DNA of 25,402 nucleotides from a virus: positions 1 through 25,402 of IMG/VR virus record IMGVR_UViG_3300017971_000724. The stretch is one strand, 5' to 3'. The notes beneath the pieces were generated by a model that saw only the letters and a program-made list of their open reading frames with translations, was not told where the DNA came from and made no database searches. Position numbers and translations under genes: made by a program. Position 1 is the first letter of the stretch; every line of letters begins with the position of its first letter. Shown here piece by piece: positions 3,001-23,231 of this stretch.

Positions 3001-6000
3001 TCACCAGGGCAAGCACCTCACCATTGGTAGCATCTCCTGTTTTTTGTTCTATCTTGACAATCGCCACGTCACCAAATGCCCCGGTCCCCTCAACGGTAAA
3101 CATATTTTCGTCAGTATCCGCAAAGGTCAGGGTAGTGACTTCGTTATCATCGAAGGTGATCGTTTTGTCAGCATCCGGGTTGGCTATATCATCCCAGGGG
3201 GTATTTGAACCAACATCCGCCTCGAGAGAGAATACATTGGTTGCCGCATCATATTTAATAATTTTGTCGTCATCCGCCTCTGCGGGTGCATCTGTAAGGG
3301 TAAAAAGATAGCCAAGGGTTTCGCCATTGGTCGATATTTGAATAACCGGGCCCGTGTAGTCAGCATCTGGCCCATCGGTATCAAGATAGATTTCTCCTGT
3401 GGCATTGGTAGTTCCAGAGGTTCCATTTGGTATTTCAAGGGAGGTAGCGCTACCGGCATCTATCGCGCCTGACACAGTGGAAAGAGTGACGGTATTGCTG
3501 TCGCAATCGAGGGCATTGGCAGCCATGTCGATGCCTTTGCCCATCGTGATTTTCTCGTTGGTTCCATCCAGAGTAATAAGGGTGGTTGCCGCACCCGCAA
3601 TATCCACCTGAAGATTCGCAACAACGTCATTTTCACCCGATGAGGCGAATATCAGATTAATTGCACCGGCCCCCGCTGTGGTATCCTCCAGGGTCAATAC
3701 CGGATCTGTGTGGCTTGACGTAATGGTGCCGCCGTCTTGGTCTATTGATCCATCAATATCCATAGAGTCTACTTTGAGAGTCGCTATCTGAATGTCGAGC
3801 TGCGTCACGCCAGCATCGGAGCCGGTGATCAGCACTTCATTGTCTGTCGCCGTATCGAGATCGATAGCAAGTTTTTCTTCGTTATCCGAGGCAAATACAA
3901 TTACATCATCTGCGGCATTGGTAATGGTTTCATCGTTTGCAAGGGTTAATTCGGTTGCTCCCGTAATGTCTATCCCGCCGGTGGTGGTAATATCTCCGTT
4001 TTGTCCGAGGGTAAATACCGCCCCTCCGGCATCTTGAGCGATGATATAGTCGGCATTAGCCTCATTATCATCGACGCTGTAATCCAAATCTAAAAGATAT
4101 ACCTGATTACCTATCTCTGCGGTACTGACTTGAATCGTAACTACAGAACCCGCCGTATTTTGAGCACTGGTAAAGGTAAGGGTTTCAGTATCATCCAAAG
4201 ATATAGAGCTTGCCGCATCCGGGTCTGCAACGTCATCCAGGAGGGTAGCTGCGCCTGCATCGGCATCGGCCTCCCATCCAATAGTGTCCGTACCGGCATC
4301 AAATTTCAAAACCATGTTATCCTGTGCATCCCCGGGAAGGCTTGCAACGGGAATAACATAGCCCACTGTGGCATCATTGGTTGATATAACCAATGTTGCG
4401 GTTGCAAATTCTCCCCCATTGCCATTGGTATCAAGTGCAATTTCTCCCGTGGCATCACAGGTTGGGGTTTGGCCGTTTGGAATTTCCAATGAGGTAGCTC
4501 CCCCAAAATCCCACGTTCCCGTAAAGGCAAAGGCCCCGTCATCATCAATGTCTGCATCGATAATGGTATCATTGGCTATGTCACCAGCGGTAAAGGCCGC
4601 TCCCACGATATCTGCCAAGGCGGCGGGGGTTTTAAATTCCAAAGCGCTGTTGTTCGATGTGCTACCCAGTATGTAATTGTTGCCGCCTGAAGTCACCACA
4701 TTGTAGGTATCGTCTGCCGTGGCCTCTATTATCGAAACGTCGGCTTCGGTCAGCCCTGCTATGCTTTCAAGTGAAGCAATATTCAGGTCCGCAAGGTCAA
4801 CCGAATCGGCTGGCAAATCTATATCCGCAGTCCCGGCAAACGTCATATCTCCCGACTGATCTACCTGCACATAATTGGTTGACCCATCCCCAAAGCGTAC
4901 CGTGGGCTCTGCACTGGTTCCCGCATTGGTAACACGGATCATCTCTACCTGGGCAGGTGTACCCCCCACGTCATCGGTAGCTTCCCAAGAGCTGTAATTA
5001 TCGGAGGCTGCGGCAGCATTAGCGATGCTTATGGTATCCGCCAGGGTAAGGTTTGCTGTTCCGATAGTCCATCCGCCCGTAACGGTTTCACCTTCATCGA
5101 GCATTCCAATGCTTGCCACGTCGCTGAGGCTGTCAGAGTTTATCTGTGACCCGCCTACCAAAAGATCGGTTGCAGCGGCAATATTAATTGTTGCGGAACC
5201 GGCATTGGTAAGGTCACCGCTATGGTCTACCTGCCAGTAGTTTGTGCTTCCATCACCGAACCGAACCGTTGGCTCTCCCGCGGTAGCAGCGTTTGTCACC
5301 CTGATCATTTCAACCTGGGCAGGGGTTCCGCCTACCTCGTCAGTTGCTTCCCATGCGGTATAGTCGTCTGCTGCACCGGAAGGGTTGACTATCGATTTTG
5401 TATCCGCCAGGGTAATGTCCCCACTGGGATTAAGCGCGTCAACCACCAGCGTCGCTATTTGAATATCAAGGGTTGCAACCCCTGTGTTGGAGAGAATATT
5501 TACCTGGTCTGCACCACCATCCGCAAAGTAGATGTCCTCATCGGACACGGTTATCTCAACATTGGTATCCGCAACAAGGTCGAGGTCGCCGTCAGTTAGT
5601 TGGGCGATATAGGTTCCGGAATCTCCGAACTGTAGTTGATGTGTCGAGTTGATTAACCAGCCTGTATTGTCTACATGAGTAATGCTGGCTTCCGTGGCAT
5701 CTTCCCATACAATAGAACCGGCGTTAGGAAGGCGAATTGTTCCCGCGTCTGCCGGGTCAGAACCAAACGATAAAGAGGTTGCTATGGTTGGAGAAGCACC
5801 GAGGGTAAGACCACTGACACCTTCGCCAAAATCCGTGGTATCGTAAAGTACCTGTAAGGCATCCTCGGTTGCAACCAATGTGGCGTTTCCGGTTGAGGGG
5901 GTAAGGTCAAAATCAATATTGACTTCAGTATCCGGGCTTTCTGCTAAACTAAAACCAACACCAAAATCAAGCGTAACTATATCAGCGCCACCAACCCCGG

Positions 6001-6693: not shown

Positions 6694-8736
6694 TTACTCT
6701 CCCCATGCCTGCAATTCATCTTTTATTAAATCAGCAGCATTCAATACTCTAAGCGTTGTTGCTGGCACAGTTTTTGCTAAAGGGGAAACCCTTATGCCAC
6801 CAGCAAGCCATCTTGCCCCAATTGGATTAAGCATTAGGCGTGATAACACGTAGGGACCAATAATAATTGCCCCTGCTGTTTTTGGCATACCAACTGCACC
6901 GAATCCGACTGCACCGGCTACTTGAGAAGCGGCAGCAGCTTGTTTTAGCTGAATGAAAATCTTTCCAGCGCCTTCCCCCTGCTGTTCTTGGATAACTTTT
7001 AGGGTATGGGCTATATTTTCAATTTGCTTGATATGTTCTTTTTTAAAAATTGCATTAATGCTTTTTTGACCCATCCCGCTCCTTCCATACATATTGTTCA
7101 AGAGTTTTCTTCCGATAAGCTCACCTGTCCGTTGGTCTACTGATTTTGCAAGCAAATCCCCAAAATACCAAGTCTCCATCATCTCCCATTGTCTTTTACC
7201 CAACACAGCTTTAAGTTTATTTATTCCAGAAATCCCTTTATTTCTGAATACTAAATTAACAACCTTTTCTGGTTCATTCAGTTTTTTTGGATTAGCAGCA
7301 TTCATCAACTTTCTAAGGAAATAATTATTATATTTAGCTGCTCCTTGTTTATATAAATCATTAGCTTGTCTCCATATTGTAAGTGCCTCTGGATTTGCTT
7401 CAGCAAGATTTTTACTGATAGAGTGATCCAACATTGCCTCAAGTTTTTTTGCTAAACCTATGGCTGGAGCCTTAGGATTGCTTATCTTAAAATCATCGGC
7501 TATATCGATAAGTCTTGTTCTGAGATCCTTTGCAGTAAGAAAATCAAGACCTTCTGGAATTCTATCGATTGCATTAACTATCTCATCACCGGCATATGTT
7601 GCGTCAATACCTTGGAGTTTTGCTATCCTTCTTTTTAGCGGTTTGATAAATTCTTTTAGGTTTTTAGTTGAAATAATTACTGGGCTGATTTCTTCTTCAA
7701 TTTGTTTACTAACTGATTTTTCAAGCTGTTTACCTGTAGGACCAAGAATACTACTGGGAATCATTTCGGTAATAGTTCTTTTTTCAATAGTCGGTCTTAA
7801 CATTTCATCAATAGTATTATACAAAGGATCTGTGATTGCTTTTCTATAGGATTTCCATTTCTGTTCTATCAAAAGAGTGACGGTTTCTCCAATAGCATCA
7901 GCATCGGCGGTTTTTGTAAAATTGGAGGCAAGATCGTCAATCATATTTTCAACTGCTCTGCCCCGCGTAATTATTTTAAAATCAGCTATTCTTTCACCAC
8001 CAATTAAACTTGCTTCCCCAAGATTATGAAGAATATCCAAAGCTCTACTTTCCGTCATTTCCGATGGTAAAATGGCAGGTTGTTTTTTTCCAAAAAGACG
8101 GGAAATTGGTTGATACCATTTCGCCTTCGGCATATATTCATCAAGAGTTTGCATCGCAAGGCGACCTTCTTCTGTGATTCTTTTGGCAAATGGTGCTAAC
8201 ATTTTACTCGCACCGGCAGCAAAAGCGCCACCTACAAGCTCATAAGCACCTTGTTTTGTTCCTGCCTTTCCAATATCTTTTATTCCTTCCCAGGTAGCCC
8301 TTGGGCCAGTGGGGGGTTCATATTTATACTGATAAAGTTTATGGAGTAACAGGTTTTGCGTTCCTTGCATTTCTTGAGTAATGCCATATCTTTTCGCAGT
8401 TGCTCCTACAACACCACCTGCTATTGCACCAGCAGTGGGACCAAGTGGAGGAGCAAGCGGAGATAATGCTAGCGCTCCAAGGGTAGCCCCTGCCATCTCA
8501 GGGCTTTCTTTTTTTAAATTTTCCCACAATTCCGCTTTTGAAAATAACGCGTCAGCTTCTTTGGTGGCAGGAACAAAACCACCCTCTTTCTGTGAGTATG
8601 TATACAAACCAATTCTCTTAGAGAATTCATCAAAAGGCATATCAGAGTAACTTTTTTTATGTAACCGTTCCGCTAATTCCCTATCAGAAAGATCATTATA
8701 CTGTGGATACTTTTTTCTTATCTCTTCAATTTTCAT
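6694..8736 (-). CDS. Large internal virion / DNA-ejection protein candidate
   Basis: 680 residues. The N-terminus carries a motif I recognise from large internal virion proteins of many short-tailed phages: IRKKYPQYNDLSD-ELAERLH, then YSDMPFDEFSKRIG (residues 6-43). A Gly/Ala-rich hydrophobic stretch follows at about 82-112 and another near 590-635, either of which could enter the cell envelope during infection. Much of the middle is charged and predicted helical. No lytic transglycosylase or peptidase motif is evident. The ATG at 8736 overlaps the TAA of the gene before it (TAATG), and an operon-end hairpin follows. The gene is strikingly AT-rich compared with the fibre and packaging genes. 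I infer it is injected with the DNA; the exact role is unknown. Confidence 0.75.
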   Translation of the reverse strand: MKIEEIRKKYPQYNDLSDRELAERLHKKSYSDMPFDEFSKRIGLYTYSQKEGGFVPATKEADALFSKAELWENLKKESPEMAGATLGALALSPLAPPLGPTAGAIAGGVVGATAKRYGITQEMQGTQNLLLHKLYQYKYEPPTGPRATWEGIKDIGKAGTKQGAYELVGGAFAAGASKMLAPFAKRITEEGRLAMQTLDEYMPKAKWYQPISRLFGKKQPAILPSEMTESRALDILHNLGEASLIGGERIADFKIITRGRAVENMIDDLASNFTKTADADAIGETVTLLIEQKWKSYRKAITDPLYNTIDEMLRPTIEKRTITEMIPSSILGPTGKQLEKSVSKQIEEEISPVIISTKNLKEFIKPLKRRIAKLQGIDATYAGDEIVNAIDRIPEGLDFLTAKDLRTRLIDIADDFKISNPKAPAIGLAKKLEAMLDHSISKNLAEANPEALTIWRQANDLYKQGAAKYNNYFLRKLMNAANPKKLNEPEKVVNLVFRNKGISGINKLKAVLGKRQWEMMETWYFGDLLAKSVDQRTGELIGRKLLNNMYGRSGMGQKSINAIFKKEHIKQIENIAHTLKVIQEQQGEGAGKIFIQLKQAAAASQVAGAVGFGAVGMPKTAGAIIIGPYVLSRLMLNPIGARWLAGGIRVSPLAKTVPATTLRVLNAADLIKDELQAWGE

Positions 8737-10994: not shown

Positions 10995-11495
10995 TTAAGC
11001 ATCTGTGAGATAAAGTACGTCAATGTAAAGACCACCAGTATCCACTAAACTCGTCATATCTGCCACGGCCCCATCAGCACTTGTTCGCACAGTAATCACT
11101 AAATCATTTGAAATTGCGACATGTTGAACCAATAAATCTGACGTGCTGTTATTGTCATAAAGATTGATTGCGAGTGAGGCTATCACGTTTCCCTCAAGAC
11201 CCGCTGCCTCTATGGTTAATGCTGAACCATCGGCTGATAAGCTGAAATTCCCGGTCGTCGCATCCTTTGCTATGTTGTCTGTTTCCGCTACAGTATCGCC
11301 ATTCCACAATGAAGCGACGGTGCATTTGAGCGTATTCGCATTGGTTCCATCCACAATTACCACGCTTGAGTGCCTTAAAACCAAACCTTGCGTTCTGTCA
11401 GTTTCAATAATTGAAAGCTCAAGCAATCTAACAAGTTGCTGTAACCAAACATCCAAGTTTGCATTACCAGTTGCCGGTGGGTATGAAATTTGCAT
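10995..11495 (-). CDS. Unknown virion-associated protein
   Basis: 166 residues. A short helix at the N-terminus (about residues 14-30, LDVWLQQLVRLLELSI) is followed by beta-rich, Thr/Ala/Asp-rich sequence that resembles fibre or tail-tip material. The ATG overlaps the stop of the nozzle-like gene (TAATG), so it is probably made in step with it. A tail accessory or fibre-attachment protein would fit; there is no domain I can name. Confidence 0.55.
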   Translation of the reverse strand: MQISYPPATGNANLDVWLQQLVRLLELSIIETDRTQGLVLRHSSVVIVDGTNANTLKCTVASLWNGDTVAETDNIAKDATTGNFSLSADGSALTIEAAGLEGNVIASLAINLYDNNSTSDLLVQHVAISNDLVITVRTSADGAVADMTSLVDTGGLYIDVLYLTDA

Positions 11496-13048
11496 TAATG
11501 ATACCCCAAAGTGACATAGCTAAATTGTATTTCAGGCACGGAGAACGGTTCACTTTTTAAATCGGTTCCCCACTTTATTTGATGTAAACGAGCGGTCTGA
11601 TCCAAATAGAGGATTGGCTTGCTTGGATTGTTCATGCTGATAGAACCTATTGAGGTCCATGCCTGCTGCTCAACCTCTGCAACCGTATCCCCGCCCCGCC
11701 AATAAAGATCGATGCTATGAAGCTGGGTTTCGGCAAATTTCATCCAGATTTCAAGCAATCTGGTAAATTGCTTCCCATAGCCAGGAAAGGGAATAATCGG
11801 CTCTATTCGGTAACCGTCCCAATCGCTCCCGTCATCGCCTTCGCTCGACTGTGTATAAAGGTGCCCATTACTATTACCGAAAACCATTTTATGAGATTCG
11901 CTGGTATAGTAAGCCCATGTTCGGGCTGAAGGCCACACATCATCTGTTTCTATGACGAGATCATTCCATGTATAACCTGTAAATGTTCTCCATGAATCCA
12001 ATCGCCTTGCGGCTTTATTCTCATGCCTCCATTGTCCTGTTTTTCGATTATAGAAAATGATCCTGCTCGGTGTGGTATCGTTATCTACCGGAATATTCCA
12101 GGCAATTTCGTTGCCAAAAGGCATCCACACAGAATCAATCAGACCACGATAGGTAGATGGAATTCGCCCTATCATATCCTCATAATCCTCAGATATGATC
12201 TGCGGCTCTGTTGTGCCGTCAAACCTGCAAAATCCTCTTTGTGGATCATAAAAATATATTGCAATACCATCGCTTATAATTGAAAACGGCGAGGCCGTAC
12301 CCCATCCTTTTATGATTGGTACGAGGGAATAAATGGGGCTTCCGGTTGAATAATAGTCCATCCTGTAAATGTCGGTTTCCGATAGGATAAAAGCTGTATT
12401 GTGCCCAAGCTGAATACCGCCCTGGATAGAATCACCAGATTTGTAAAGCTGGTTAGCTGCCGGAAATGTGGTTTCTGCAAGGGCATCTGTCCATCTGATT
12501 TCAATGTCTCCGTCCGTCTGATCTGAATAGAGGCCCACGATTCTATTGGTAAAATTCATCAAGTATCTGAATTTGTATTCCGTACCCGATGCTATCAGTT
12601 TAGAGACATTCGCATCGTTATAGTCTATCTTATAAGGAGTGTGCTCTGCCCTATCTGCAAACACCATATAAGTGCCATACTGAATGATGCTGTAAAGGTC
12701 TACATCATCAGTCGCAAAGGTATTTCCCCCACTTACGTCTCCCTGGTCACGACTTGCATCAAATTTGTAAACCTTGCCGTTGTCAAAATAGAAATGCACC
12801 CTGTTTGTGCCATCCCATAATTCATGCAGGCCGAGGCATTTTGTAGCCTGAGCATTGGCGCTATTAGACCACTGAGCCCTGCCGAGTGCCTTTGAGCAGG
12901 AGTTTTTTTCACGCTCTAAATCGAAGTTCTGTCCTCCCGCGTCATGGGTGATAAAATCGCTTTCACCTATCGCATTGAACATTTCGGGTGAATCAATCGG
13001 GCAGTTATTCTTAGTACCCAAAAGAGGGCGTATCGTTAAATAGTGCAT
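11495..13048 (-). CDS. Tail nozzle / DNA-stabilisation-like protein (beta-propeller type)
   Basis: 517 residues from the chosen ATG. It consists of repeated beta-strand units with aromatic turns (KVYKFDASRD, AFILSETDIYRMDYY, GIAIYFYDPQRGFCRFDG, RIIFYNRKTGQWRHE, GHLYTQSSEGDD) and ends in a beta domain containing LYWRGGDT and IQFSYVTLG. This layout is typical of the tail nozzle or gp10-like stabilisation proteins of short-tailed phages, which plug the DNA channel after packaging. A frame extending to 13072 exists, but the ATG at 13048 overlaps the previous stop as TAATG and has AGGA 5 bases upstream, so I use it. Family placement rests on sequence character, not on a search. Confidence 0.65.
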   Translation of the reverse strand: MHYLTIRPLLGTKNNCPIDSPEMFNAIGESDFITHDAGGQNFDLEREKNSCSKALGRAQWSNSANAQATKCLGLHELWDGTNRVHFYFDNGKVYKFDASRDQGDVSGGNTFATDDVDLYSIIQYGTYMVFADRAEHTPYKIDYNDANVSKLIASGTEYKFRYLMNFTNRIVGLYSDQTDGDIEIRWTDALAETTFPAANQLYKSGDSIQGGIQLGHNTAFILSETDIYRMDYYSTGSPIYSLVPIIKGWGTASPFSIISDGIAIYFYDPQRGFCRFDGTTEPQIISEDYEDMIGRIPSTYRGLIDSVWMPFGNEIAWNIPVDNDTTPSRIIFYNRKTGQWRHENKAARRLDSWRTFTGYTWNDLVIETDDVWPSARTWAYYTSESHKMVFGNSNGHLYTQSSEGDDGSDWDGYRIEPIIPFPGYGKQFTRLLEIWMKFAETQLHSIDLYWRGGDTVAEVEQQAWTSIGSISMNNPSKPILYLDQTARLHQIKWGTDLKSEPFSVPEIQFSYVTLGYH

Positions 13049-13845
13049 TATATTCCTGCTGGAAAATACCAACCATTTGTGTAAACAGCCACAGTATTAC
13101 TGCTTGTTCCAGATTTATATACCTGTATTTTTTGGCTGCTATCGGTAATTATTGGCAAGACAATCTGAACGGAATAATTGTTGCTTGATAAATTACCAAT
13201 GCCCTGTCCGGTGCTTCCAGTTTGCCCATTTGTACGAACCTTTATGGCACTGCTTGCAGACACATATAGACCTTCAATATACACGTTAGCCAGAAGGCTA
13301 AATACCGGCATAGTCAGCGCCAAACCTGCAACGGGATACCATGTAGCATCTGTAATGTTGGTTGCCGCTTGATCGGTGATATAATTCGCATACCGCACAT
13401 AATCCCCACTATTGAAAAATTCCAAAATATTGCTTGGCGTAGAATTTGTACGAACCGCAAAAATACACCGATCATCCCCGTTATACCAACCGGCATATGT
13501 ATCAGACCATGCCGGCTCTGTGCTTGACCACAGCAATTCCGAATTTGTTATCTCGGTGCCGCTGGTAATTCCCGAATGATCGAGATAGAGATAATACCAG
13601 TCGTCTTTTACCGGAGAACTAATAGCACCTGTCGTCAATTCTGCATCCCACCAGCACACTTTGTCTTTACAATAATAGTAGGCAGGTTTACATTTAATAG
13701 TATAGGCAGTAGTGCCACCGTTATATGTAAAGGTTGAGCGCCTTTCCTTTAACCAGAGAGCTAAAAATTCAAGATTTTCTTTTATATCCGGCACATCAGA
13801 ACTAATCGCATTTCCGAGTGCCGGAATGTCTTCATTCCAGGTCAT
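13048..13845 (-). CDS. Unknown tail/virion protein, beta-rich
   Basis: 265 residues. The N-terminus (MTWNEDIPALGNAISSDVPD, then IKENLEFLALWLKER) resembles the attachment end of phage tail appendages, with a helix that could pack as a bundle. The rest is Ser/Thr/Tyr/Trp-rich beta sequence. Its second half (about 165-265) looks like a separate sandwich ending in WYFPAGI. There are clustered Cys at about 52-64 (KCKPAYYYCKDKVC). The ATG has TAGGAG upstream and the stop overlaps the nozzle gene start. A tail appendage or adaptor is likely; no family is recognised. Confidence 0.55.
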   Translation of the reverse strand: MTWNEDIPALGNAISSDVPDIKENLEFLALWLKERRSTFTYNGGTTAYTIKCKPAYYYCKDKVCWWDAELTTGAISSPVKDDWYYLYLDHSGITSGTEITNSELLWSSTEPAWSDTYAGWYNGDDRCIFAVRTNSTPSNILEFFNSGDYVRYANYITDQAATNITDATWYPVAGLALTMPVFSLLANVYIEGLYVSASSAIKVRTNGQTGSTGQGIGNLSSNNYSVQIVLPIITDSSQKIQVYKSGTSSNTVAVYTNGWYFPAGI

Positions 13846-13854
13846 TTTTTACTC

Positions 13855-14601
13855 CTAATTCTGATACCCTCTTATGTATCCTTTTTCAAAAACACTCACT
13901 GCCCTGAAGCCCATCTCCTTCCACTTGCGCTTTGCGTTGGCCCGGGAGCTTCTTGCAAGCCCGTCGTTCCACTTGCTCTTAAACCATGTGGCCTTCTCAA
14001 AATCATGCAGGGATTCAAAGGATTCAGCAATCGCATAATCACAGCACCGGAAGCGCTCTATCTCCGGCAGGAACGTCATGTCGGTTGCAGTGTTGTCGTC
14101 ACCCGATCTTTCATAATCAATCTCAATGATAGTGCTGCCGCTTACCGGGGGCACAAGCCACAACTCCATGTTTTTTATGCAACCCACCAGAGGTTCATTA
14201 TTGCTTTCCTCGTCGGGGTCGGGGAACTTCGTGTCGAATAGGGTAGCAGGCCAAAGCGTAATCGTTCTATCATTGGTCTGGTCTTTTATACGGATATCAC
14301 CACCGTTATAATCGGGCGGCAAAGAAACCCTGTAATCACTCGCCGTGAGCGTGGCATAAGCATATCTCCTGGCGAAAGTGAAAGACTTCACCTGCATAAT
14401 CTCTTCTTTCGCCCTGATTAACCAACGCTGCACTTCGGTACTGGTAGGTGAAGAGGTTGCAGATAAAGTTCCCCTCTTGAGCTTGCTTTCCACCTCTGTC
14501 TGCATTGCAGAGATATCCGACAGGGTTCCCGCGATAAAGGAAATTGTAGGATGTTCGGTCCATGAGGTATTTACACTCGTGGTCGCATCGGTAATCGCCA
14601 T
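13855..14601 (-). CDS. Head-to-tail adaptor-like protein
   Basis: 248 residues. A helix (about 57-75, STEVQRWLIRAKEEIMQ) is followed by FARRYAYATLTASDYRVSLP, then an I-D strand, a P-x-LF segment, ELWLVPPVSGSTIIEIDYE strands and a long C-terminal helical region with FRCCDYAIAESFESLHD. This order of helix, small beta core and C-terminal helices is typical of the adaptor proteins that sit between portal and nozzle in short-tailed phages. Position between capsid genes and nozzle gene agrees. Its start lies two bases beyond the stop of the second small paralogue. Confidence 0.6.
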   Translation of the reverse strand: MAITDATTSVNTSWTEHPTISFIAGTLSDISAMQTEVESKLKRGTLSATSSPTSTEVQRWLIRAKEEIMQVKSFTFARRYAYATLTASDYRVSLPPDYNGGDIRIKDQTNDRTITLWPATLFDTKFPDPDEESNNEPLVGCIKNMELWLVPPVSGSTIIEIDYERSGDDNTATDMTFLPEIERFRCCDYAIAESFESLHDFEKATWFKSKWNDGLARSSRANAKRKWKEMGFRAVSVFEKGYIRGYQN

Positions 14602-14605
14602 GACA

Positions 14606-14869
14606 TTAATAACCCCATACCCAAAGGTTTATCTGGTCACCATTCGCGTGGGTGGTTCCAAGTTCAATAGATGATCCCGCGCCCGTGCAAAGATAGGCTG
14701 CAATATTGCTCGCCACGCTCACGCTTGTAATCATTGCGCTGTCGATGTAATGGAGATCGAGTTCAGCGGCAGTAATTGCAGTAGTGGCACCATCCAATGT
14801 AACCAGGAAGGCTTTCAGCATCTTTTTACCGAGCCCTCCCCGTCTTTGTTCTGAAAATGCTAAAGTCAT
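14606..14869 (-). CDS. Small conserved protein, paralogue B (probable virion component)
   Basis: 87 residues from the ATG at 14869, which has AGGGAGG 4 bases upstream. A longer frame to 14935 exists but overlaps paralogue A and lacks this ribosome site. Hand alignment with paralogue A gives about 49 identities over 87 positions, including FLVT-DG, LD-HYIDSA, AYLCTGAG and an identical C-terminus INLWVWGY. The pattern is beta-rich with a small basic N-terminus, as in head decoration or fibre-base proteins. Function is unknown; the copies could also be substrates of the neighbouring enzymes. Confidence 0.75.
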   Translation of the reverse strand: MTLAFSEQRRGGLGKKMLKAFLVTLDGATTAITAAELDLHYIDSAMITSVSVASNIAAYLCTGAGSSIELGTTHANGDQINLWVWGY

Positions 14870-14882
14870 TTGTCCCTCCCTG

Positions 14883-15149
14883 CTAGTAGCCCCATACCCA
14901 TAAATTAATCGTGTCTCCAGCCACAAACGCATCACCGATTACAATAGATGTTCCCGCACCAGTGCAGAGATAAGCACCCACATTTCCCGACATGCTCACA
15001 CCTGCTACCTGGGCACTATCTATGTAGTGCATATCAAGGTCGCTGGCATCGACAGTCGTATTGCTGCCATCCATTGTCACAAGGAAAGATTTCATTATCT
15101 TTCCCCCAACGGCTCCCCTGGCTTGCTCCGCCACAGTCAGACTTCCCAT
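14883..15149 (-). CDS. Small conserved protein, paralogue A (probable virion component)
   Basis: 88 residues. It is the first of two tandem paralogues and lies 12 bases downstream of the radical SAM gene. AGGAGG before the ATG supports the start. The central LDMHYIDSAQ segment and the AYLCTGAG loop hold its only Cys, which is kept in both copies, as are the two C-terminal Trp and the final Tyr. No signal peptide or membrane segment is visible. A capsid decoration or minor structural protein fits size and place. Confidence 0.75.
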   Translation of the reverse strand: MGSLTVAEQARGAVGGKIMKSFLVTMDGSNTTVDASDLDMHYIDSAQVAGVSMSGNVGAYLCTGAGTSIVIGDAFVAGDTINLWVWGY

Positions 15150-15161
15150 TTTTATATCCTC

Positions 15162-16097
15162 CTACAAGATTTTGTACTTCGCGCTGGAAGTACAGTTTAT
15201 TGTTCTTTTTTTGTCTATCGTGCTATAAAGGAGCGGTGATTCATCCTCTATATTGAGTTGGTCGCAATGCTCACAAGGTAAACCCTTCAAGTCTCCCTCT
15301 CTGTGCTTCCTTCTCAATTCTTGATACGCGTCACCTTCCAGTATATCCCTCAACTTAGTTGTCGTTGTGTCCCCCAAAACTATCTCTGCATCCGTGATAA
15401 AACAGCACGGTATTATCTTTCCATCCCACTGAATCTGCACCGGACCTCTCTCGGGTCTGCCACAGGTCTTTTTGCGCTTTACAGTCCTGTTTCGGTAATC
15501 CTTTGCAATGCTCCAGTTATGGGGTTTCCAGATTTCAAGCTCGTCACAAACACCTTCCCAAAATTTCCTCACATCTTCAACTGACTCTCCGTGCATGGGG
15601 ATGACACTCACGGAAATTTTTGTGTTATATTTCCACACTTCCCTGATATTGATTGCCGTGAAAATATTCATAAGGGTGTGCATCCACGTCAGACTCTTAT
15701 GCACATTTTCATAATCAACCTTATTGATTCCATGTACGCTGAACCTGATATGCGTGAGCCCCGCATCAAACAGTTTTTGGGACCACCCACTGTGGCAGAG
15801 GGATCCGTTAGAAGTAATAAAGGTTTCCCTGCCGAGTTTCGTGCAGAATTCAATCTTCTTATCGATAGTCTTATCTAAAAGCGGCTCACCAAACCCGAAA
15901 GGTGAAATCAGTTTTGCTCCAAGCTCTATGGATTGTTTGACCAACTTCTTGAATGCCCCATCAGTCATCACACCCTTTCTGCGCTTAATGCAATTATGAT
16001 TGCAAATAGTGCATTGAGCATTGCACAGGTTGGTTGTCTCAATCCGCACTTCAGGGTTAATCAGTTGCGTACCTATATTGTTCAACGTACTTAACAA
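15162..16097 (-). CDS. Radical SAM / SPASM-domain protein
   Basis: 311 residues counted from 16097. The radical SAM cluster motif is C25-NAQ-C29-TI-C32, followed by GFGEP (68-72) for the SAM amino group and ITSNG (94-98). The C-terminal part has SPASM-type cysteines for extra Fe-S clusters: C212 in TCGRPERG, C231-C232 in KIIPCCF, C275 and C278 in LPCEHC. Such proteins modify peptides, proteins, sugars or cofactors by radical chemistry; the substrate here is unknown. The first codon at 16097 is TTG and the frame overlaps the previous gene by 41 bases. Later TTG, CTG or GTG starts are possible, so the N-terminus is uncertain. Its neighbours are a small unknown protein, a methyltransferase and the two small paralogues. 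Confidence 0.88.
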   Translation of the reverse strand: MLSTLNNIGTQLINPEVRIETTNLCNAQCTICNHNCIKRRKGVMTDGAFKKLVKQSIELGAKLISPFGFGEPLLDKTIDKKIEFCTKLGRETFITSNGSLCHSGWSQKLFDAGLTHIRFSVHGINKVDYENVHKSLTWMHTLMNIFTAINIREVWKYNTKISVSVIPMHGESVEDVRKFWEGVCDELEIWKPHNWSIAKDYRNRTVKRKKTCGRPERGPVQIQWDGKIIPCCFITDAEIVLGDTTTTKLRDILEGDAYQELRRKHREGDLKGLPCEHCDQLNIEDESPLLYSTIDKKRTINCTSSAKYKIL

Positions 16098-16404
16098 TGT
16101 TTTCCCCTATTTCAGTGAGCGTATTACAATTTGTTAAATCAATTAATCTATCGTAATATTCATGTAAAATCGGGAGGTAAAGCGAATAAAACGCTAAACT
16201 CCATACCGTCATATCATTCTGAACCCAATAGATTAAAACCTTCTCGCCCTTAAGCGCTAAAGGATTTGTATAAGCCCCAAAAACAGCAATGGAAACGTCA
16301 CACGGTTCCTCTTCTTTGCATACAGTCACCCCGTTTTCCGTTAAACAATCTTCAATTTTTTCGATAGACAATCGAGATGGCATAAAAACCTTAACATCTC
16401 GCAT
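16057..16404 (-). CDS. Small unknown protein, possibly glycosyltransferase-like
   Basis: 115 residues with alternating strands and helices: VKVFMPSRLSIEKIEDCL, then DVSIAVFGAYTNPLALKGEK, VLIYWVQNDM and a C-terminal helix ending IGENIVKYVEQY. The layout hints at half of a Rossmann-like fold, as in the acceptor half of GT-B enzymes, but it is too short for a full enzyme and no nucleotide motif is clear. It overlaps the methyltransferase by 14 bases; the in-frame ATG at residue 8, preceded by AAGG, is an alternative start. It could be a partner subunit of the flanking enzymes. Confidence 0.5.
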   Translation of the reverse strand: MRDVKVFMPSRLSIEKIEDCLTENGVTVCKEEEPCDVSIAVFGAYTNPLALKGEKVLIYWVQNDMTVWSLAFYSLYLPILHEYYDRLIDLTNCNTLTEIGENIVKYVEQYRYATD

Positions 16405-17002
16405 TAATCATCACCCCATCAGGAAAATGTACAGCCAAAGCAGTGTCACGCCCATTAAATATAATAATCAACCAAAAATGCGGATTGATTTGCGCGTTTA
16501 TTATCGAAAACCCGTGTTCTTCAAACTTGTTCATCCACCACTGCCCGTTGTGAATACAGATATGTGTGTTAAATGGTGGATCACCCCTTGTTGCCACTGT
16601 GAAAAAACACTCCTCACTTACTCTTTTAACCTCAGAAAGGACAGCATCTATGTTTTCCTCCGGTATATGCTCCAAAACCTCACAACAGAAATACATATCG
16701 AATTGATTGTCTTTATACGGAAGTTGCTCACCAAATGCCTTTACCTGGTGTCCGCTTAAAACATCAACGCTGGGATGGTATAATTCCGTTACATAACAAC
16801 GGTGCCCATCCTGTAAAAACTTTACCGCTTCATAACCGTTGCCACTTCCGAGGCAATGAACCGTCTTTTTTCCTTTTTGGAAATCGGAACGCTGACAAAG
16901 AAAAGCGGCGAACTGCAAGCCCCTGTTGACTGCTGGTGATCCATAATCAAGGGAGCCGTAAATACCCCCTTCGGAGTATAGTTTTAATGCTTCCTCGTTC
17001 AT
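16391..17002 (-). CDS. Class I SAM-dependent methyltransferase
   Basis: 203 residues. Motif I is HCLGSGNGYE (49-58), the Gly-rich SAM loop. The acidic end of strand 2 is E73 in VTELYHP. The post-motif strand and signature FDMYFCCEVLEHIPEE (101-116) match the type 11/23 methyltransferases, which usually act on small molecules, sugars or surface-glycan intermediates rather than DNA. There is no NPPY/DPPY motif, so a DNA adenine or cytosine N-methylase is unlikely. It overlaps the zinc-ribbon gene by ATGA. Its place between the DUF115 and radical SAM genes suggests shared work on a glycan or protein. Confidence 0.85.
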   Translation of the reverse strand: MNEEALKLYSEGGIYGSLDYGSPAVNRGLQFAAFLCQRSDFQKGKKTVHCLGSGNGYEAVKFLQDGHRCYVTELYHPSVDVLSGHQVKAFGEQLPYKDNQFDMYFCCEVLEHIPEENIDAVLSEVKRVSEECFFTVATRGDPPFNTHICIHNGQWWMNKFEEHGFSIINAQINPHFWLIIIFNGRDTALAVHFPDGVMINARC

Positions 17003-17214
17003 ATCTTCTTGAATTTCGGTCCCAATGTAGCCTGCACGGTGTCGCTAAACTTGACATGCAAAGGTGCCTTTGGGCTCGTCTTCTTACGCTTCAGAATATC
17101 TGCTCGCTGCTTGCGTAACTTTTCAGTACACACACTGCAACAATAGAATTCACTCGGTATGATGATCGGGCCACCACATGCCAGGCACACACCTTCTTCA
17201 AGTCGGTTTCCCAT
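16999..17214 (-). CDS. Small four-Cys zinc-ribbon protein
   Basis: 71 residues. Cys pairs C10-x2-C13 and C25/C26-x2-C29 could bind one zinc. The C-terminal half is Lys-rich (KLRKQRADILKRKKTSPKAP), which could contact nucleic acid or an acidic partner. The ATG overlaps the stop of the previous gene as TGATG, and its stop overlaps the methyltransferase start as ATGA, so it lies inside a coupled set. Role unknown. Confidence 0.7.
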   Translation of the reverse strand: MGNRLEEGVCLACGGPIIIPSEFYCCSVCTEKLRKQRADILKRKKTSPKAPLHVKFSDTVQATLGPKFKKI

Positions 17215-17438
17215 CAGCGTTCCTCTAATCCGAATTTATCTTTGATGATTCCAAACCTGTCGTTGAAAAACGGTCCCTGTTGGATGCCGAATCCGCGGTC
17301 GAAGTCGGGGCGCGTTATGTATAAGCTGTCATCTGCCTGCTTTCCCCTGAATTGACATTCCGGGTGATATCCTCCATTCTCTTTTGAACTAAGTTTCCCG
17401 CATTTCGGGCAACGATAGGGATTTCCCCTCCGGGCCAT
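17214..17438 (-). CDS. Small zinc-ribbon protein nested over the DUF115 3' end
   Basis: 74 residues. C10-PK-C13 and H25-PE-C28 could form a zinc knuckle; the remainder is aromatic and charged (FDRGFGIQQGPFFNDRFG). The start is marked by a perfect Shine-Dalgarno (AAGGAGGT at 17445-17452) 6 bases before the ATG, inside the DUF115 coding sequence. The first 124 bases therefore overlap that gene in a different frame. Role unknown. Confidence 0.7.
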   Translation of the reverse strand: MARRGNPYRCPKCGKLSSKENGGYHPECQFRGKQADDSLYITRPDFDRGFGIQQGPFFNDRFGIIKDKFGLEER

Positions 17439-18589
17439 CGCATTACCTCCTTGGCTAATTGAAATTGTCTTACTGCGTCTTCAAACATCATGGTATGCCA
17501 GCGGGGGCATACCTCATCGAGCATATACCAATCTTCATTTTTTGATTTGTGAACTTTTGCACGTGACATTACCCCAAGCATTCCACCCTCAGAACAGTTA
17601 TAATAATGCCAACGCAGATCGGTTCTGTTCATATTCGCCATTGCCCACGCCTCAATCCAGGTCTTATAAACCCACAAATTATGGGTAGTTCCCACAAGGC
17701 TTAATTCAACGTTGTAAGACCCCTTCCCCGTATAGATAAGCGGGCGCGAGAGCTTAAATCCCATCCATTTATAGGCGTTTTTTGCCTCATCTCTCCCATC
17801 CTGCATCTGTGTGGTTTGATAGTCACCGTCGGCATAATAGGTTTCCCTGCGCTTTTCAACATCCCTATCAAGCAAATAAGAAAGGTCATTTCCCAGTGCC
17901 ATAAAGGAACTTGAGCCAAACACAGCCAAACCCAGAAGAAACATGCAGTTGAGCACATTTCCCCCCACAAGCATCGTATGGGGTTCCGGGTCTTGCTTCG
18001 CAACCTTCCTGAATTCATCAACTGACGATTCGCTGCCGGGGATATAGAACCTGATTTCCCTCCCCTGGCGCGACCATCGTTTCAATACTCTTGGCGAAGC
18101 GGCAAGTGTCGAAATTAACGTAACGTTCCGACCTTCCCTTGGAATATCTTCAGTGAGTTGTGGAAGCACATCTTCACTCGCATCAGCAAGCATTACAAAG
18201 TCAGGTAAGATACCCATTTTCAATAGAGGCTTAAACTGATGGTTAGAGGCAATTATCATAAAATCCCGATCTTCCCATGATTTCCGTCCATCCGTTGCCG
18301 CTATTCTTTCTAAAACATGCTGATTCTTTTTAAATGAAGGCCCTGCACCGACACCGATAACCGACTTATTCTTCCCGAGGTTAAGGCAATCACGTTTCAA
18401 TGAGCCATGTTTTCTCCAGAGATTGTTTTCAATGTTCCTGCGCGTATTAACTCTCCAGAGATCAGCCAATCCCTTATTTGTGTTCTTATTTGATGCATCG
18501 ATATAATTCCAGGAATCCGGCGTAATCACACCTTTGAACTCGGGGTGGCGCTTGATTATTTTTTCGTAACTTGCAAATTCTATAGCCAT
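17315..18589 (-). CDS. DUF115 / Maf-like (MptE-like) protein, putative glycosylation-related enzyme
   Basis: 424 residues. The key motif is SVIGVGAGPSFKKN (76-89), the nucleotide-binding loop of the DUF115 family, followed by MIIASNHQFKPLLKMGILPD (about 112-131) and DFVMLADASE. The family includes archaeal 6-hydroxymethylpterin diphosphokinase (MptE) and bacterial Maf proteins, which transfer nonulosonic acids to flagellin. Phage members are known but their substrates are not. The ATG lies only 8 bases after a GC-rich hairpin that follows the capsid gene; the best ribosome-site match (GGGGTG) lies in that hairpin. The last 124 bases overlap the next gene. I infer transfer or activation of a sugar-like group; pterin chemistry is less likely. 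Confidence 0.75.
   Translation of the reverse strand: MAIEFASYEKIIKRHPEFKGVITPDSWNYIDASNKNTNKGLADLWRVNTRRNIENNLWRKHGSLKRDCLNLGKNKSVIGVGAGPSFKKNQHVLERIAATDGRKSWEDRDFMIIASNHQFKPLLKMGILPDFVMLADASEDVLPQLTEDIPREGRNVTLISTLAASPRVLKRWSRQGREIRFYIPGSESSVDEFRKVAKQDPEPHTMLVGGNVLNCMFLLGLAVFGSSSFMALGNDLSYLLDRDVEKRRETYYADGDYQTTQMQDGRDEAKNAYKWMGFKLSRPLIYTGKGSYNVELSLVGTTHNLWVYKTWIEAWAMANMNRTDLRWHYYNCSEGGMLGVMSRAKVHKSKNEDWYMLDEVCPRWHTMMFEDAVRQFQLAKEVMRWPGGEIPIVARNAGNLVQKRMEDITRNVNSGESRQMTAYT
17445..17452 (-). promoter_or_regulatory. Shine-Dalgarno inside the DUF115 gene
   Basis: Minus-strand AAGGAGGT lies 6 bases upstream of the ATG at 17438. It is the strongest evidence that the overlapping zinc-ribbon frame is translated, since the DUF115 frame continues another 124 bases across it. 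Confidence 0.75.
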
Positions 18590-18627: not shown

Positions 18628-19821
18628 TTAGCTTAAACGGGTGAACATGCCATGCTGTCCGAGGTTGTAGCCTTTCATCTCCATTGAAAACTCGGAGATA
18701 ATCTGCCAATCCTCGAAGTCACCCTTCTTGCCCAGTTTCTCCATGATCGCCTTGCGGTTTTTCTTGGCCCTCAAGCGAATCCTGCTGGTGTCCAGAATGA
18801 ACATCAGGTTCACAGGCTTCTTCGCCATAGGCACAAGATCGACCTCAATGCCGGATTCGCCGAGATAGGACGTAATGTGGCCGCCGCCCTTCCCCTCGTT
18901 GATCCTGGTTCTAATCCGGTTCTTGTCCCAGTGCGTAAACTTCGCAATCTGCGAAAGAGCACCGAAAACCGAGAGATTGCGCGACCCATTCTCCCACAGC
19001 TCATTGAGGACATTGTTTACCGCAGTCTCAGTGAGCGATGTGGTTGAGGTGTCGATATGCGTCCCAGTCTGACCGATGAGAAAACCGAGCACACCGTTCA
19101 TCGTTCCCGCAATACTAGATGTTCTGGCGGTATAACCGGAATACAGAGCAACGTTTTCCCTGTGTCTCTGCATCTCCTTCAACCGCATTAAAATCTGGTG
19201 TTGGTCTTCCCTGTTTACTGCATAGTATGCGGTATTCTGCATACTTCCAGTGATTGCCACGTCCTGCCTCAAGATATTGAACCCGTTTGAACACTGGGTT
19301 CTATCCCGTGGCGTACCGTCTCTCGGCAGTGAACCTTCCCCGGCAATCCCGCCAAGAATATAGAGCTTATCTGCCGCCGTTGCTGATGTACAAGTAAACC
19401 CGGTTGCCGCTACCCATTCAAGCGTACAAGAAGCCTCGTTTACACTATCTACCATCATAAGGCCATGCTCCCCATCCGTGGAACTGTAATGATAGAGCAT
19501 GCTTCCGGTTACAAGCTGTTTTACGGCCTCAGTTGTGGTAAGGCCCTCAACAGTCGTAAAGACAATGGATGTAACAGTGGTAGCCTTTGCGCCAGTAACC
19601 ATATACCCCGGACCAAGATTTTCGGAAATCCATTCTATCGAAAGTCCGTCACTGTCCGCTCCCCATCCAATCCTGTTTACGAAAGGAGTATCCGCCAGTG
19701 CCAGAAGATCCAGCACATCGGACACGTCCCTCTTCTCAAGACCGGAGGAAAGGGTAAGCAGGGTAAATTCCGGTTTACCCCGATCAGTCGAGGCGGTCAT
19801 TGCATGATAACTAATAGCCAT
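18628..19821 (-). CDS. Major capsid protein, SU10/DUF5309-like
   Basis: 397 residues. RDVSDVLDLLALADTPFVNRIG (about 31-52) is the family's N-terminal signature, followed by the strand IEWISENLG. Then comes the typical block NGFNILRQDVAITGSM, YAVNREDQHQILMRLKEMQRHRENVALYSG (about 180-230), which matches the spine helix of HK97-fold capsids of this family. The C-terminal MGKKGDFEDWQIISEFSMEM-like end completes it. A beta-rich insert (about 105-160) could form a surface loop. AGGAGGT before the ATG predicts strong translation. Directly upstream is the scaffold gene, the normal order. The fold assignment is firm; the decoration state is unknown. Confidence 0.85.
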   Translation of the reverse strand: MAISYHAMTASTDRGKPEFTLLTLSSGLEKRDVSDVLDLLALADTPFVNRIGWGADSDGLSIEWISENLGPGYMVTGAKATTVTSIVFTTVEGLTTTEAVKQLVTGSMLYHYSSTDGEHGLMMVDSVNEASCTLEWVAATGFTCTSATAADKLYILGGIAGEGSLPRDGTPRDRTQCSNGFNILRQDVAITGSMQNTAYYAVNREDQHQILMRLKEMQRHRENVALYSGYTARTSSIAGTMNGVLGFLIGQTGTHIDTSTTSLTETAVNNVLNELWENGSRNLSVFGALSQIAKFTHWDKNRIRTRINEGKGGGHITSYLGESGIEVDLVPMAKKPVNLMFILDTSRIRLRAKKNRKAIMEKLGKKGDFEDWQIISEFSMEMKGYNLGQHGMFTRLS

Positions 19822-21005: not shown

Positions 21006-22905
21006 AGCCAAATTCCTGTTTGTTCAATGTAAGTTGTTCCTTGAAATCCTTATCACTGGTGACCAATTTTCCCTGTGTCTCCATCTGAATCTTACTTTGT
21101 TCCTGCATCATTGCGGCCTTTTGCTGCTGTTGCATCTCCTGCATAAACTGTTGGGGACTTTTCAGAAGCAAATCTGCTTCTCTGATATCCATTAATTCCA
21201 TCATTGTTTTGAGCATCTGATATTGGTTTATCCACGGGTGCTGCATCCACATCTGAGCGAGCTGCACTAATTGCTGCGCCCTGAATTGTTTACCCATAGC
21301 CGGTTCCATTGACGTGTAGCGTGCAGAAAAATCAAAATCAGGATGAATGTCTTCACCGAATAACTGACCGAATTGTGGTCCCTGCTGTGCTTCCTTATCG
21401 CCTATCCGGTATTCAAAGCCGCTTGGCAAATGAAATGTATTGAGCACCATCATGTAGCGCAGCAACGGCCTGATTCCGAGATAATCCATGCTCATAAGCA
21501 TGAGCTTCGCCCTGGCCTCTCCCATGCTCTGAAGGGAATAGACTACTCCCACGCGCTCCTGTCTCGTCGGGGTCTGCCCCATATTGTAGGGATACATCCC
21601 GGTCAAATCCTGAATCGTACTCTCATAGAAGTGTTCCTGCTCCTGAAAGAGGTTAGAGTGCATATCGGGAATGACAATGGGCTCCACTTCTCCCTGGTGG
21701 GCGGGGACAATACCAAATGGCTTCCAGGTAAGAGCCGCCGGGTCAATGTCGGCTTCAGGGTCAACCCGCATCATCTGATTGACCATCATCATTACGTTCT
21801 GCATTCTTAGGTTGCCGAGGTTGTTGATCTGCTCCTGAATACCCTTGCACAAGCGTACAAGGCCCACATCCCAATAAAGCTCAGGGTGCATGTAGCAGCC
21901 AATATCAAATAGAGGGCGGATACCGTAAGTATTGCGCTGCACACTAAGAATGGTCTTATAGTTGCCGATATGAACAATGGCTTCTTCCTCCTGGCCCTTA
22001 ATTTGCATACCGCTTCCAACCTCATAGGGCGCAGAATCGAAAATCAACCGGCAGTATGCTTCAAGTATGTCAACTTCGGGAGCCTGATATTTGCCCCGAT
22101 GCTCCAGTTCCGTTTTCTCAAGCGCATTTTCGATCCCGAGACTTGCCATAAATGCTTCATCGGAATCCTGTGCATATAGCCCGGCACCAGCGCTCGGTTC
22201 CCAGCCTAATTCCTTGATATTCTTGTAAATACCCTTATCTGCCTTCTTTTTTATTTCATCTATACTTCTCTTGTAGACCAGAAAAACGGCAGGCATCTTT
22301 TGAATCGACTTATATTCCGGGTCTGGTACAAACATTTTGTTATGAAGGACTTCTACATAAGGCCCGTCATAAATCGTCTGCATTTCCTGGCTGATATGGT
22401 CAATCGTGTCATAGCCCTGAAAGTTGCCGAGCCGGTCAAAATTGGGCATTGGCAGCGCAATTCTTCGCGGGGTAAGGCGATCTTCTTTTTTCCAGTAAGC
22501 CTTCACAATACCCTTACCAAACGTGAGGTTGTTAAAGGCCCACTTCATCATGGTAAGATAGGAGCCACCCTGCATATCAATGTCATTCAGTGATTCGAGT
22601 TGAAAATTAAGAACACCCTCAACCTTTTTTGCCCGCTGTATGTCTACCTTTTTGCGCGGCTTCACCGAGACAATGTTGCCGGATTGGTAAAGTTGGTCCA
22701 TGAAGCGTGACAATATGGTATAGATAATCGGCAAGATGCGGTTAAATACCTCGCTGTAAGCAAGGGGATAGTCCTCGGGCCGCCTGTGGCCAAGGTAATA
22801 TTCGATGTCTTCATCGTAATTATCCCGGCTGTACTTGTTTCTATCCCATTGCTGCTTGTAGAGCTGCATCAGCCAGCGAAATATATCTCTCTCTTTTGCT
22901 GTCAT
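20947..22905 (-). CDS. Portal (head-tail connector) protein
   Basis: 652 residues, within the size range of podovirus portals. The N-terminal domain has RNKYSRDNYDEDIEYYLGHR (about 22-41), typical of the clip/wing start, then AYSEVFNRILPIIYTILSRF. The core includes MKWAFNNLTFGKGIVKAYW and DVGLVRLCKGIQEQINNLGN, with DLTGMYPYNMGQ where portal stem and crown meet, and a Gln/Met-rich C-terminal barrel (MQEMQQQQKAAMMQEQSKIQ) as in P22-type portals. The start overlaps the cupin stop (ATGA). Function: the dodecameric gate through which terminase packages DNA. Confidence 0.85.
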   Translation of the reverse strand: MTAKERDIFRWLMQLYKQQWDRNKYSRDNYDEDIEYYLGHRRPEDYPLAYSEVFNRILPIIYTILSRFMDQLYQSGNIVSVKPRKKVDIQRAKKVEGVLNFQLESLNDIDMQGGSYLTMMKWAFNNLTFGKGIVKAYWKKEDRLTPRRIALPMPNFDRLGNFQGYDTIDHISQEMQTIYDGPYVEVLHNKMFVPDPEYKSIQKMPAVFLVYKRSIDEIKKKADKGIYKNIKELGWEPSAGAGLYAQDSDEAFMASLGIENALEKTELEHRGKYQAPEVDILEAYCRLIFDSAPYEVGSGMQIKGQEEEAIVHIGNYKTILSVQRNTYGIRPLFDIGCYMHPELYWDVGLVRLCKGIQEQINNLGNLRMQNVMMMVNQMMRVDPEADIDPAALTWKPFGIVPAHQGEVEPIVIPDMHSNLFQEQEHFYESTIQDLTGMYPYNMGQTPTRQERVGVVYSLQSMGEARAKLMLMSMDYLGIRPLLRYMMVLNTFHLPSGFEYRIGDKEAQQGPQFGQLFGEDIHPDFDFSARYTSMEPAMGKQFRAQQLVQLAQMWMQHPWINQYQMLKTMMELMDIREADLLLKSPQQFMQEMQQQQKAAMMQEQSKIQMETQGKLVTSDKDFKEQLTLNKQEFGYDMALESIKQEAKNQKSAQ

Positions 22906-23231
22906 AGCTTAGATCCTAAATTTTGACGTTCAATGTCGCCCTCATCGTACAGGACAAACATCTCTTCAATCATTTCGGAGTCTTCATAGACCTTAAATTC
23001 ATGGTAGACACCGGGACCAACAGTAAATTCATTGCCCGTTCCAAGGATTGTCTCGCCAAATTCGGTTTTTATGCCCACTTTTCCGCGAATTACTACGAAT
23101 TTGTTCCATTTAGCCTGGTGTTTGTGCCAACTGCACCGGGTTTTCGCCTTTAGTTTCAGATAACTTGTGGCATGTGTGCTATCCTGGCGGATTAACCAAC
23201 GCTCACCCCATATTTTCGCGGTACGTTCCAT
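22902..23231 (-). CDS. Small single-domain cupin
   Basis: 109 residues. Cupin motif 1 appears as SWHKHQAKWNKFVVIRG: H36 and H38 are in place, but the usual metal-binding Glu is Asn (N43). Motif 2 is GNEFTVGPGVYHEF with H77. The fold resembles mannose-6-phosphate isomerase-type or epimerase-like cupins. Loss of the Glu may mean another metal site or a structural role. The ATG overlaps the stop of the basic microprotein (TAATG). A sugar-related role would match the DUF115 cassette, but this is inference. Confidence 0.7.
   Translation of the reverse strand: MERTAKIWGERWLIRQDSTHATSYLKLKAKTRCSWHKHQAKWNKFVVIRGKVGIKTEFGETILGTGNEFTVGPGVYHEFKVYEDSEMIEEMFVLYDEGDIERQNLGSKL

Follow-up and report, generated by a model that had tools for sequence, protein, structure and literature searches.

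Maf flagellin glycosyltransferases, including those of M. magneticum (5mu5), C. botulinum (CbMaf), Campylobacter and Aeromonas, O-glycosylate Ser/Thr residues of a self-assembling surface protein within the cytosol, and have a PF01973 domain in common with a DUF115 protein encoded by an uncultured phage. This protein is the product of the first gene in a six-gene cassette, situated between capsid and adaptor genes, that is the subject of the present analysis. The cassette is carried by IMG/VR record IMGVR_UViG_3300017971_000724, which is classed as a probable fragment, and the entire 25,402 bases of which are referred to herein as the window. Archaeal MptE (M. jannaschii HPPK) belongs to the same Pfam family and has a related fold, representing a weaker match than Maf; no pterin genes are found near the cassette. 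The last cassette gene encodes a radical S-adenosylmethionine (SAM) enzyme, hereafter rSAM, for which the closest match in the PDB is BtrN, the 2-deoxy-scyllo-inosamine dehydrogenase of butirosin. The substrate of BtrN is an aminocyclitol, which it oxidises at an alcohol group; in contrast to MoaA, its single auxiliary cluster is ligated by four Cys (PMC9012708).

Only a few cultured phage groups are known to have glycosylated particles. For the mycobacteriophages (Che8 and relatives; Freeman 2023, as cited in PMC11256854 and PMC12619734), phage-encoded enzymes are thought, according to these citing accounts, to glycosylate capsid/tail proteins. The cassette likewise comprises phage-encoded enzymes. 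The mycobacteriophages, as portrayed in those accounts, employ glycosyltransferases, whereas the locus at hand has a DUF115 enzyme, a twitch-type rSAM and swappable decorating enzymes, within an unrelated, uncultured SU10-type family. We consider the cassette to be probably, though some way from certainly, a late-expressed virion glycosylation module, and as such a form of phage virion glycosylation rather than a separate kind of system.

Gene content of the capsid-to-adaptor run

The cassette, its borders and the two small genes that follow it are listed below in order of transcription.

18628..19821, − strand: SU10-type major capsid protein (MCP), left border of the cassette (PF17236, E 7.3e-36, 124.6 bits; phrog_1328, 1.3e-30)
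17315..18589, − strand: DUF115/MptE-like protein, 424 aa (PF01973, E 2e-15, 57.5 bits against a cut-off of 34.6)
17214..17438, − strand: small Cys-rich (zinc-ribbon-like) protein, 74 aa, starting inside the DUF115 gene
16999..17214, − strand: small CxxC...CxxC protein with a basic tail, 71 aa, its four Cys invariant in 8 relatives
16391..17002, − strand: class I SAM methyltransferase, 203 aa, in the variable slot (Methyltransf_11, PF08241, E 1.7e-10)
16057..16404, − strand: 115-aa protein, co-occurring with the slot methyltransferase
15162..16097, − strand: rSAM enzyme with a probable twitch domain, BtrN-like, 311 aa (PF04055, 1.8e-11; SPASM, PF13186, 7.5e-12)
14883..15149, − strand: small beta protein, first of two paralogues (A), a candidate for virion protein and for acceptor, its family present at the same place in at least 7 relatives
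14606..14869, − strand: small beta protein, second paralogue (B), sharing 57% identity with A across their aligned region
13855..14601, − strand: SU10-type adaptor, right border of the cassette (PF24175, E 2.1e-7, 32.0 bits against a cut-off of 27)

A sequence-only reading of the window had described a coupled run of six genes between capsid and adaptor, and this description holds. All six open reading frames (ORFs) are present on the − strand and each overlaps the next (spacings of -124, -1, -4, -14 and -41 nt), with a gap of 38 nt from the MCP gene to the DUF115 gene and of 12 nt from the rSAM gene to the next small gene, and with SU10_MCP and SU10_adaptor models identifying the two borders. 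Terminator- and promoter-like sites occur within the run at a frequency at or below chance. The same reading correctly named a DUF115/Maf-like protein and a SAM methyltransferase, as PF01973 and Methyltransf_11 both score above their cut-offs and Maf is the best fold match. Its description of the 115-aa protein as Rossmann-like found no such backing, with no Pfam, PHROG or NCBIfam match and a best PDB profile hit at chance level (E 0.11).

With regard to the smaller products, every Pfam model falls below cut-off for both Cys proteins (74 and 71 aa). The 74-aa gene is nevertheless very likely a real gene rather than a frame artefact, because a strong AAGGAGG ribosome-binding site precedes its start inside the DUF115 gene; relatives occupy the same place in L003, L005, L006, L014 and L059 (L numbers denote the contigs and loci compared). 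For paralogue B, the start is likely the ATG at 14869 and not the GTG at 14935, as a ribosome-binding site precedes the later ATG. The small beta protein is modelled as all-beta (pLDDT 87); fold comparisons tie a phage tail-fibre tip with cupins and with beta domains of glycosidases (best Z 6.5), and none of these is claimed as its identity.

The DUF115 protein is best read, from its model, as a Maf-like glycosyltransferase core. The best structural match of this model (mean pLDDT 71, pTM 0.78, poor beyond residue 385) is Maf 5mu5 (Foldseek E 2e-6, Z 18.9, root mean square deviation 3.9 over 243 residues, 19% identity), with the next matches being M. jannaschii HPPK (MptE; Z 13.6 over 210 residues), SteA (10.9) and sialyltransferases (about 7). 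The Maf match is limited to Maf residues 244-512, leaving the N- and C-terminal domains of Maf unmatched, such that a three-domain enzyme of 632 aa is here represented by a 424-aa protein with the core only. A PDB sequence-profile search with the DUF115 protein gave no match, and it scores 16.6 bits against the NCBIfam PseD model, for which equivalence is set at a cut-off of 670. Unlike Maf, it is encoded beside a capsid gene with no flagellin in sight; cytosolic glycosylation of a self-assembling surface protein is the analogy that we propose for it.

For the rSAM protein, a profile built from seven relatives aligns with BtrN over two stretches, one for the radical SAM domain and one for the C-terminal domain. 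Cys 25/29/32 (CxxxCxxC) and Cys 212/231/275/278 align with the SAM- and auxiliary-cluster positions of BtrN, respectively; Cys 231 and 232 are both conserved, and either may be the auxiliary ligand. These positions (25/29/32; 212/231/232/275/278) are kept in 29 homologues, save for Cys 212 in one remote homologue. In L020 the SAM-cluster Cys seemed to be missing, which proved to be an artefact of ORF start, as the motif sits in open frame upstream, whilst in L010 the contig is cut at that very spot. The sequence-only reading had called this a radical SAM/SPASM protein, and both Pfam models do score above cut-off; the C-terminal domain, however, seems better named a twitch than a full SPASM, given candidate auxiliary-cluster Cys as in BtrN. 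The relationship to BtrN is remote (profile level) and, unlike that of BtrN, the gene context is viral. By analogy, a role in sugar oxidation is favoured, since BtrN oxidises an aminocyclitol alcohol using one four-Cys auxiliary cluster. An identity as anti-phage viperin (pVip) was considered and rejected, as the protein scores 30.3 bits against an NCBIfam cut-off of 180 and the PADLOC match is to the radical SAM domain only.

Conservation, variable slot and inheritance

Relatives were collected by IMG/VR scans with the capsid, DUF115 and rSAM proteins and their alignments; scanning viral contigs with the DUF115 protein as a lone sequence returned nothing, and it was the alignment-based scan that found them. 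The resulting set contains 18 records from one uncultured phage family, of which the pairs L003/L004, L064/L065 and L016/L019 are nearly identical, and too alike for a selection test. To these was added L055, an 8-kb contig binned in an actinobacterial metagenome-assembled genome (MAG), for which the host link is uncertain. Gene order across the family is constant, and runs terminase, cupin, portal, small gene, scaffold, MCP, DUF115, followed by zinc ribbon(s), variable slot, rSAM, small beta or fibre-like protein(s) and adaptor. As this arrangement is conserved in at least 14 distinct contigs, a chance origin is excluded.

PF01973 scores above cut-off in 17 of the 18 records, in one copy each and after the MCP gene, with the 18th record (13,482 bases) stopping at MCP; amongst 14 control genomes the family was found in archaea only. 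The DUF115 gene lies directly 3′ of the MCP gene in all viral records that reach beyond MCP (17/17), as well as in the MAG contig. A single rSAM gene, ahead of the small beta/fibre genes and the adaptor, is present in 13 records, corresponding to 13 of the 14 that span the region; from the five records without it, four stop short of its place, and only L067 covers the place yet lacks the gene. The sequence-only reading had set co-occurrence in relatives as the check by which it should stand or fall, and the DUF115 and rSAM genes do recur together in this manner.

Outside this family, the DUF115 protein (window and L008 copies) had no tblastn match amongst cultured phages, and its lack of any PHROG match fits with such an absence. 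Similarly, 50,697 cultured phage records contained no match to the portal, and those to the capsid were weak. One of the latter is Cronobacter phage A24, with a distantly related SU10-type capsid (about 26% over 60%); unlike in the cassette phages, neither its head-gene block nor the region that follows includes an annotated enzyme in its record. In the open-licence literature we found no paper placing DUF115 or MptE-like genes in phage heads.

The slot between the zinc ribbon(s) and rSAM is variable. It holds Methyltransf_11 and the 115-aa protein in the window, L008 and L020, the latter two being the only loci with same-slot relatives of the window-type methyltransferase, and in each of which the 115-aa relative directly follows. 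A different Cys-ribbon methyltransferase (Methyltransf_23) is present in L003, L005, L006, L014, L016 and L055, and a Methyltransf_24 type in L006, L014, L016 and L059. Sulfotransfer_3 exceeds its Pfam cut-off in L008, L009 and L064, and falls below it in L016/L019. L014 additionally has a hexapeptide acyltransferase (NeuD-like, 8.6e-20) and two GT2 proteins, L055 has a GT2 domain, and the slot of L007 is empty. A methyltransferase with Methyltransf_13/23/14 architecture also occurs in the structural block of L059.

Sugar-nucleotide genes occur within the same structural block, where those for GDP-mannose dehydratase and CMP-Kdo synthetase adjoin terminase and portal genes. GDP-mannose 4,6-dehydratase scores above the TIGR01472 cut-off in L014 and L059, and a GDP-fucose-synthase-like protein in L016/L019 reaches 345.7 bits, below the model cut-off of 500. 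CMP-Kdo synthetase scores above the kdsB cut-off one to two genes before terminase on contigs of L067 and L028 (just upstream of terminase, at L070:14690-15403 and L071:913-1638). A protein of 284-289 aa adjoins the GDP-sugar dehydratase/epimerase gene in three loci (L014:1535-2389, L016:1678-2547 and L059:3491-4354).

Pairwise distances were compared over 12 shared contigs. Those of DUF115 follow MCP closely (r 0.83; partial r 0.43 after removal of portal, p 0.0004), whereas those of rSAM correlate at 0.20 with MCP and at 0.56 with the tail gene at 11495-13072. As distances track MCP for DUF115 only, the DUF115 gene is inherited with the capsid, whilst the rSAM gene has been exchanged more freely or belongs with the downstream genes. 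Physical linkage may contribute to the DUF115-MCP correlation, although scaffold, equally near MCP on the opposite side, reaches only 0.56 with it; that DUF115 exceeds scaffold at equal closeness hints, weakly, at the capsid protein as the DUF115 partner. The notion that the six genes form one set found little or no support, as the methyltransferase and 115-aa genes recur in two relatives and the histories of the anchors differ; judged from these distances, the six are not one inherited unit. Rather, the plan is of fixed ends, a capsid-linked transferase and a radical enzyme, with exchangeable decorators between them.

Probable glycosylation of the particle and competing explanations

The sequence-only reading had proposed that the phage makes an unusual modification on its own late proteins. 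Its chemical half is supported, because relatives hold sugar-nucleotide, sulfotransferase, acyltransferase and GT2 genes and because the DUF115 fold is Maf-like; the half concerning which protein is modified gained little or no support. What is directly seen are the genes and how they are ordered and conserved, together with the match in fold and with the sugar-nucleotide genes of relatives. From these, a three-step route may be proposed. Judging by its fold, the DUF115 protein would act as a cytosolic Maf-like glycosyltransferase, transferring a sugar from an activated and probably CMP-linked form (of Kdo or a nonulosonic acid) onto Ser/Thr of a head protein or of the neighbouring small beta/fibre proteins. 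By homology to BtrN, the twitch rSAM would oxidise or otherwise remodel a hydroxyl-bearing carbon of this sugar or of its precursor. Finally, the families in the swap zone suggest that its enzymes could attach methyl, sulfate, acyl or further sugar groups, in which case the outer sugar chemistry would vary from phage to phage. Both CMP-Kdo and CMP-Neu5Ac serve as donors for Maf of C. botulinum and of G. kaustophilus (PMC11339370), and since Maf enzymes take CMP-Kdo and relatives encode CMP-Kdo synthetase, a CMP-sugar is our leading guess, and a guess only, for the donor.

A more specific version of this scheme is a tentative one, and on balance doubtful. It holds that the locus is a first instance of viral Maf-type O-glycosylation, with the capsid-locked DUF115 protein placing a CMP-activated Kdo-like/nonulosonic sugar on the capsid or head-fibre, and with rSAM and swappable methyl-, sulfo- and acyltransferases making sugars not known from cells.

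Several points weigh against virion glycosylation. The phage is uncultured, as its portal is without a cultured match; of 14 records, only two have CMP-Kdo synthetase and five have genes of the GDP-mannose-dehydratase family; and the rSAM gene is absent from one of the two kdsB records. A joint DUF115-rSAM pathway is not proven, as rSAM distances do not track MCP (r about 0.2). Furthermore, the DUF115 model (pLDDT 71) was built on 7 sequences and is poor in its C-terminal part, and PF01973 includes a pterin kinase too.

The enzymes might instead alter lipopolysaccharide (LPS), capsule or S-layer glycan of the host late in infection, blocking re-adsorption of progeny or superinfection and leaving the virion untouched. 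Surface glycans are made by the same enzyme classes, the KdsB product CMP-Kdo is the LPS core donor, and change of host serotype by phages is known (PMC12619734). We nonetheless hold this to be unlikely, as the cassette sits in the late structural operon and as none of the relatives has its DUF115 gene apart from the MCP gene, with which it co-diverges. The particle is thus favoured as target because of gene position and co-divergence, and not because of chemistry.

A particle role is also argued for by a second phage group, in which the same rSAM lineage occupies the same site beside an unrelated head type. Here, rSAM relatives of 35-40% identity (L010, L029, L030, L031, L035 and L037) immediately precede a connector-like gene and have FkbM or another methyltransferase, as well as glycosyltransferase-like genes, for neighbours; the connector and some transferases are named from sequence reading and BLAST between loci rather than from family models. 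The head itself differs, with L029 having an HK97-type Phage_capsid (PF05065).

That rSAM might be the maturase of the adjacent small beta proteins, in the manner of ribosomally synthesised and post-translationally modified peptides (RiPPs), with DUF115 unrelated to it, we regard as quite improbable. SPASM/twitch rSAM enzymes do frequently act on peptides, and small paralogous proteins come after the rSAM gene in many relatives. A precursor, however, is not always adjacent, as L008, L009, L020, L028 and L064 keep rSAM with no detectable small-protein homologue; no RRE-type (RiPP recognition element) peptide-binding domain was found; and amongst solved structures it is an aminocyclitol dehydrogenase, rather than a peptide maturase, that matches best.

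Less probable still is a DUF115 protein acting as an MptE-type pterin/nucleotide pyrophosphokinase, with the cassette serving cofactor or nucleotide chemistry. The Pfam family carries the MptE name and there is a structural match to M. jannaschii HPPK (Z 13.6), yet Maf stands 5 Z units higher, over 243 rather than 210 residues, and the genes that accompany it in relatives are for sulfotransferase, acyltransferase and sugar nucleotides, with no pterin genes amongst them.

We give equally little credence to a hot spot of unrelated cargo, whereby the middle genes would be passing acquisitions devoid of joint function. Slot contents do vary between phages, the rSAM history is unlike that of MCP, and the methyltransferase and 115-aa genes are AT-richer (GC 0.43 and 0.37) than the cassette borders (MCP 0.51; DUF115, zinc-ribbon and MCP genes 0.45-0.51), as expected of later arrivals. 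The DUF115 and rSAM genes are near-universal in the family, however, and the slot enzymes share one broad theme. DNA hypermodification was also considered, and no base-modifying gene was seen within the six-gene run.

If virion glycosylation is correct, an entire uncultured family of tailed viruses of bacteria appears to hold such machinery as a core element of its head-gene block. Viral glycosylation would thereby gain a new enzyme type, the sugars on the particle would seem to face pressure to diversify, and the cassettes would provide a compact source of sugar-tailoring rSAM enzymes and protein O-glycosyltransferases.

Remaining genes of the window and further observations

All major genes of the window are carried by the − strand. 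They are transcribed in the order terminase-like gene, small genes including the cupin, SU10 portal, scaffold-like gene, MCP and the six cassette genes, and thereafter the two small paralogues, adaptor, more tail genes and a giant fibre-like ORF. Portal, MCP and adaptor models each exceed their cut-offs, marking an SU10-type structural block. Rfam and tRNA scans of the window gave no matches. Features beyond the cassette region are as follows.

25400-23970, − strand: terminase-like gene, named from sequence and place, with no Pfam model above threshold
22902..23231, − strand: small cupin, before the portal gene (Cupin_2, E 3e-4; MannoseP_isomer, 0.0084; both below cut-off)
22905-20947, − strand: SU10 portal (PF23899, 84.7 bits, over cut-off)
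Between the portal and MCP genes: scaffold-like gene
6694-8736: 680-aa protein with weak tape-measure and head-morphogenesis PHROG matches
2-6463, − strand: giant ORF of >2,150 codons, truncated by the record end, repetitive, with a signal-peptide-like start and the look of a fibre/adhesin

On the basis of its matches, the 680-aa protein is possibly an ejected internal protein. In L008, L064 and L067, a protein of 311-326 aa lies between a fibre-like protein and the adaptor (L008:9490-10470, L064:12757-13713 and L067:11407-12342); it appears DUF115-like by eye, with no Pfam match, and could be an extra transferase for the fibre. In Kyanoviridae Phage C48C1 (L002, 98839-99825), a 30% identical rSAM gene lies downstream of the baseplate genes, with genes for a carbamoyltransferase and a glycosyltransferase nearby. 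Lastly, the cupin gene before portal is kept in nearly all relatives covering the position, and its pairwise distances correlate at r 0.55 with rSAM as opposed to 0.23 with the capsid; its product (22902-23231) possibly shares in the sugar chemistry of the cassette.

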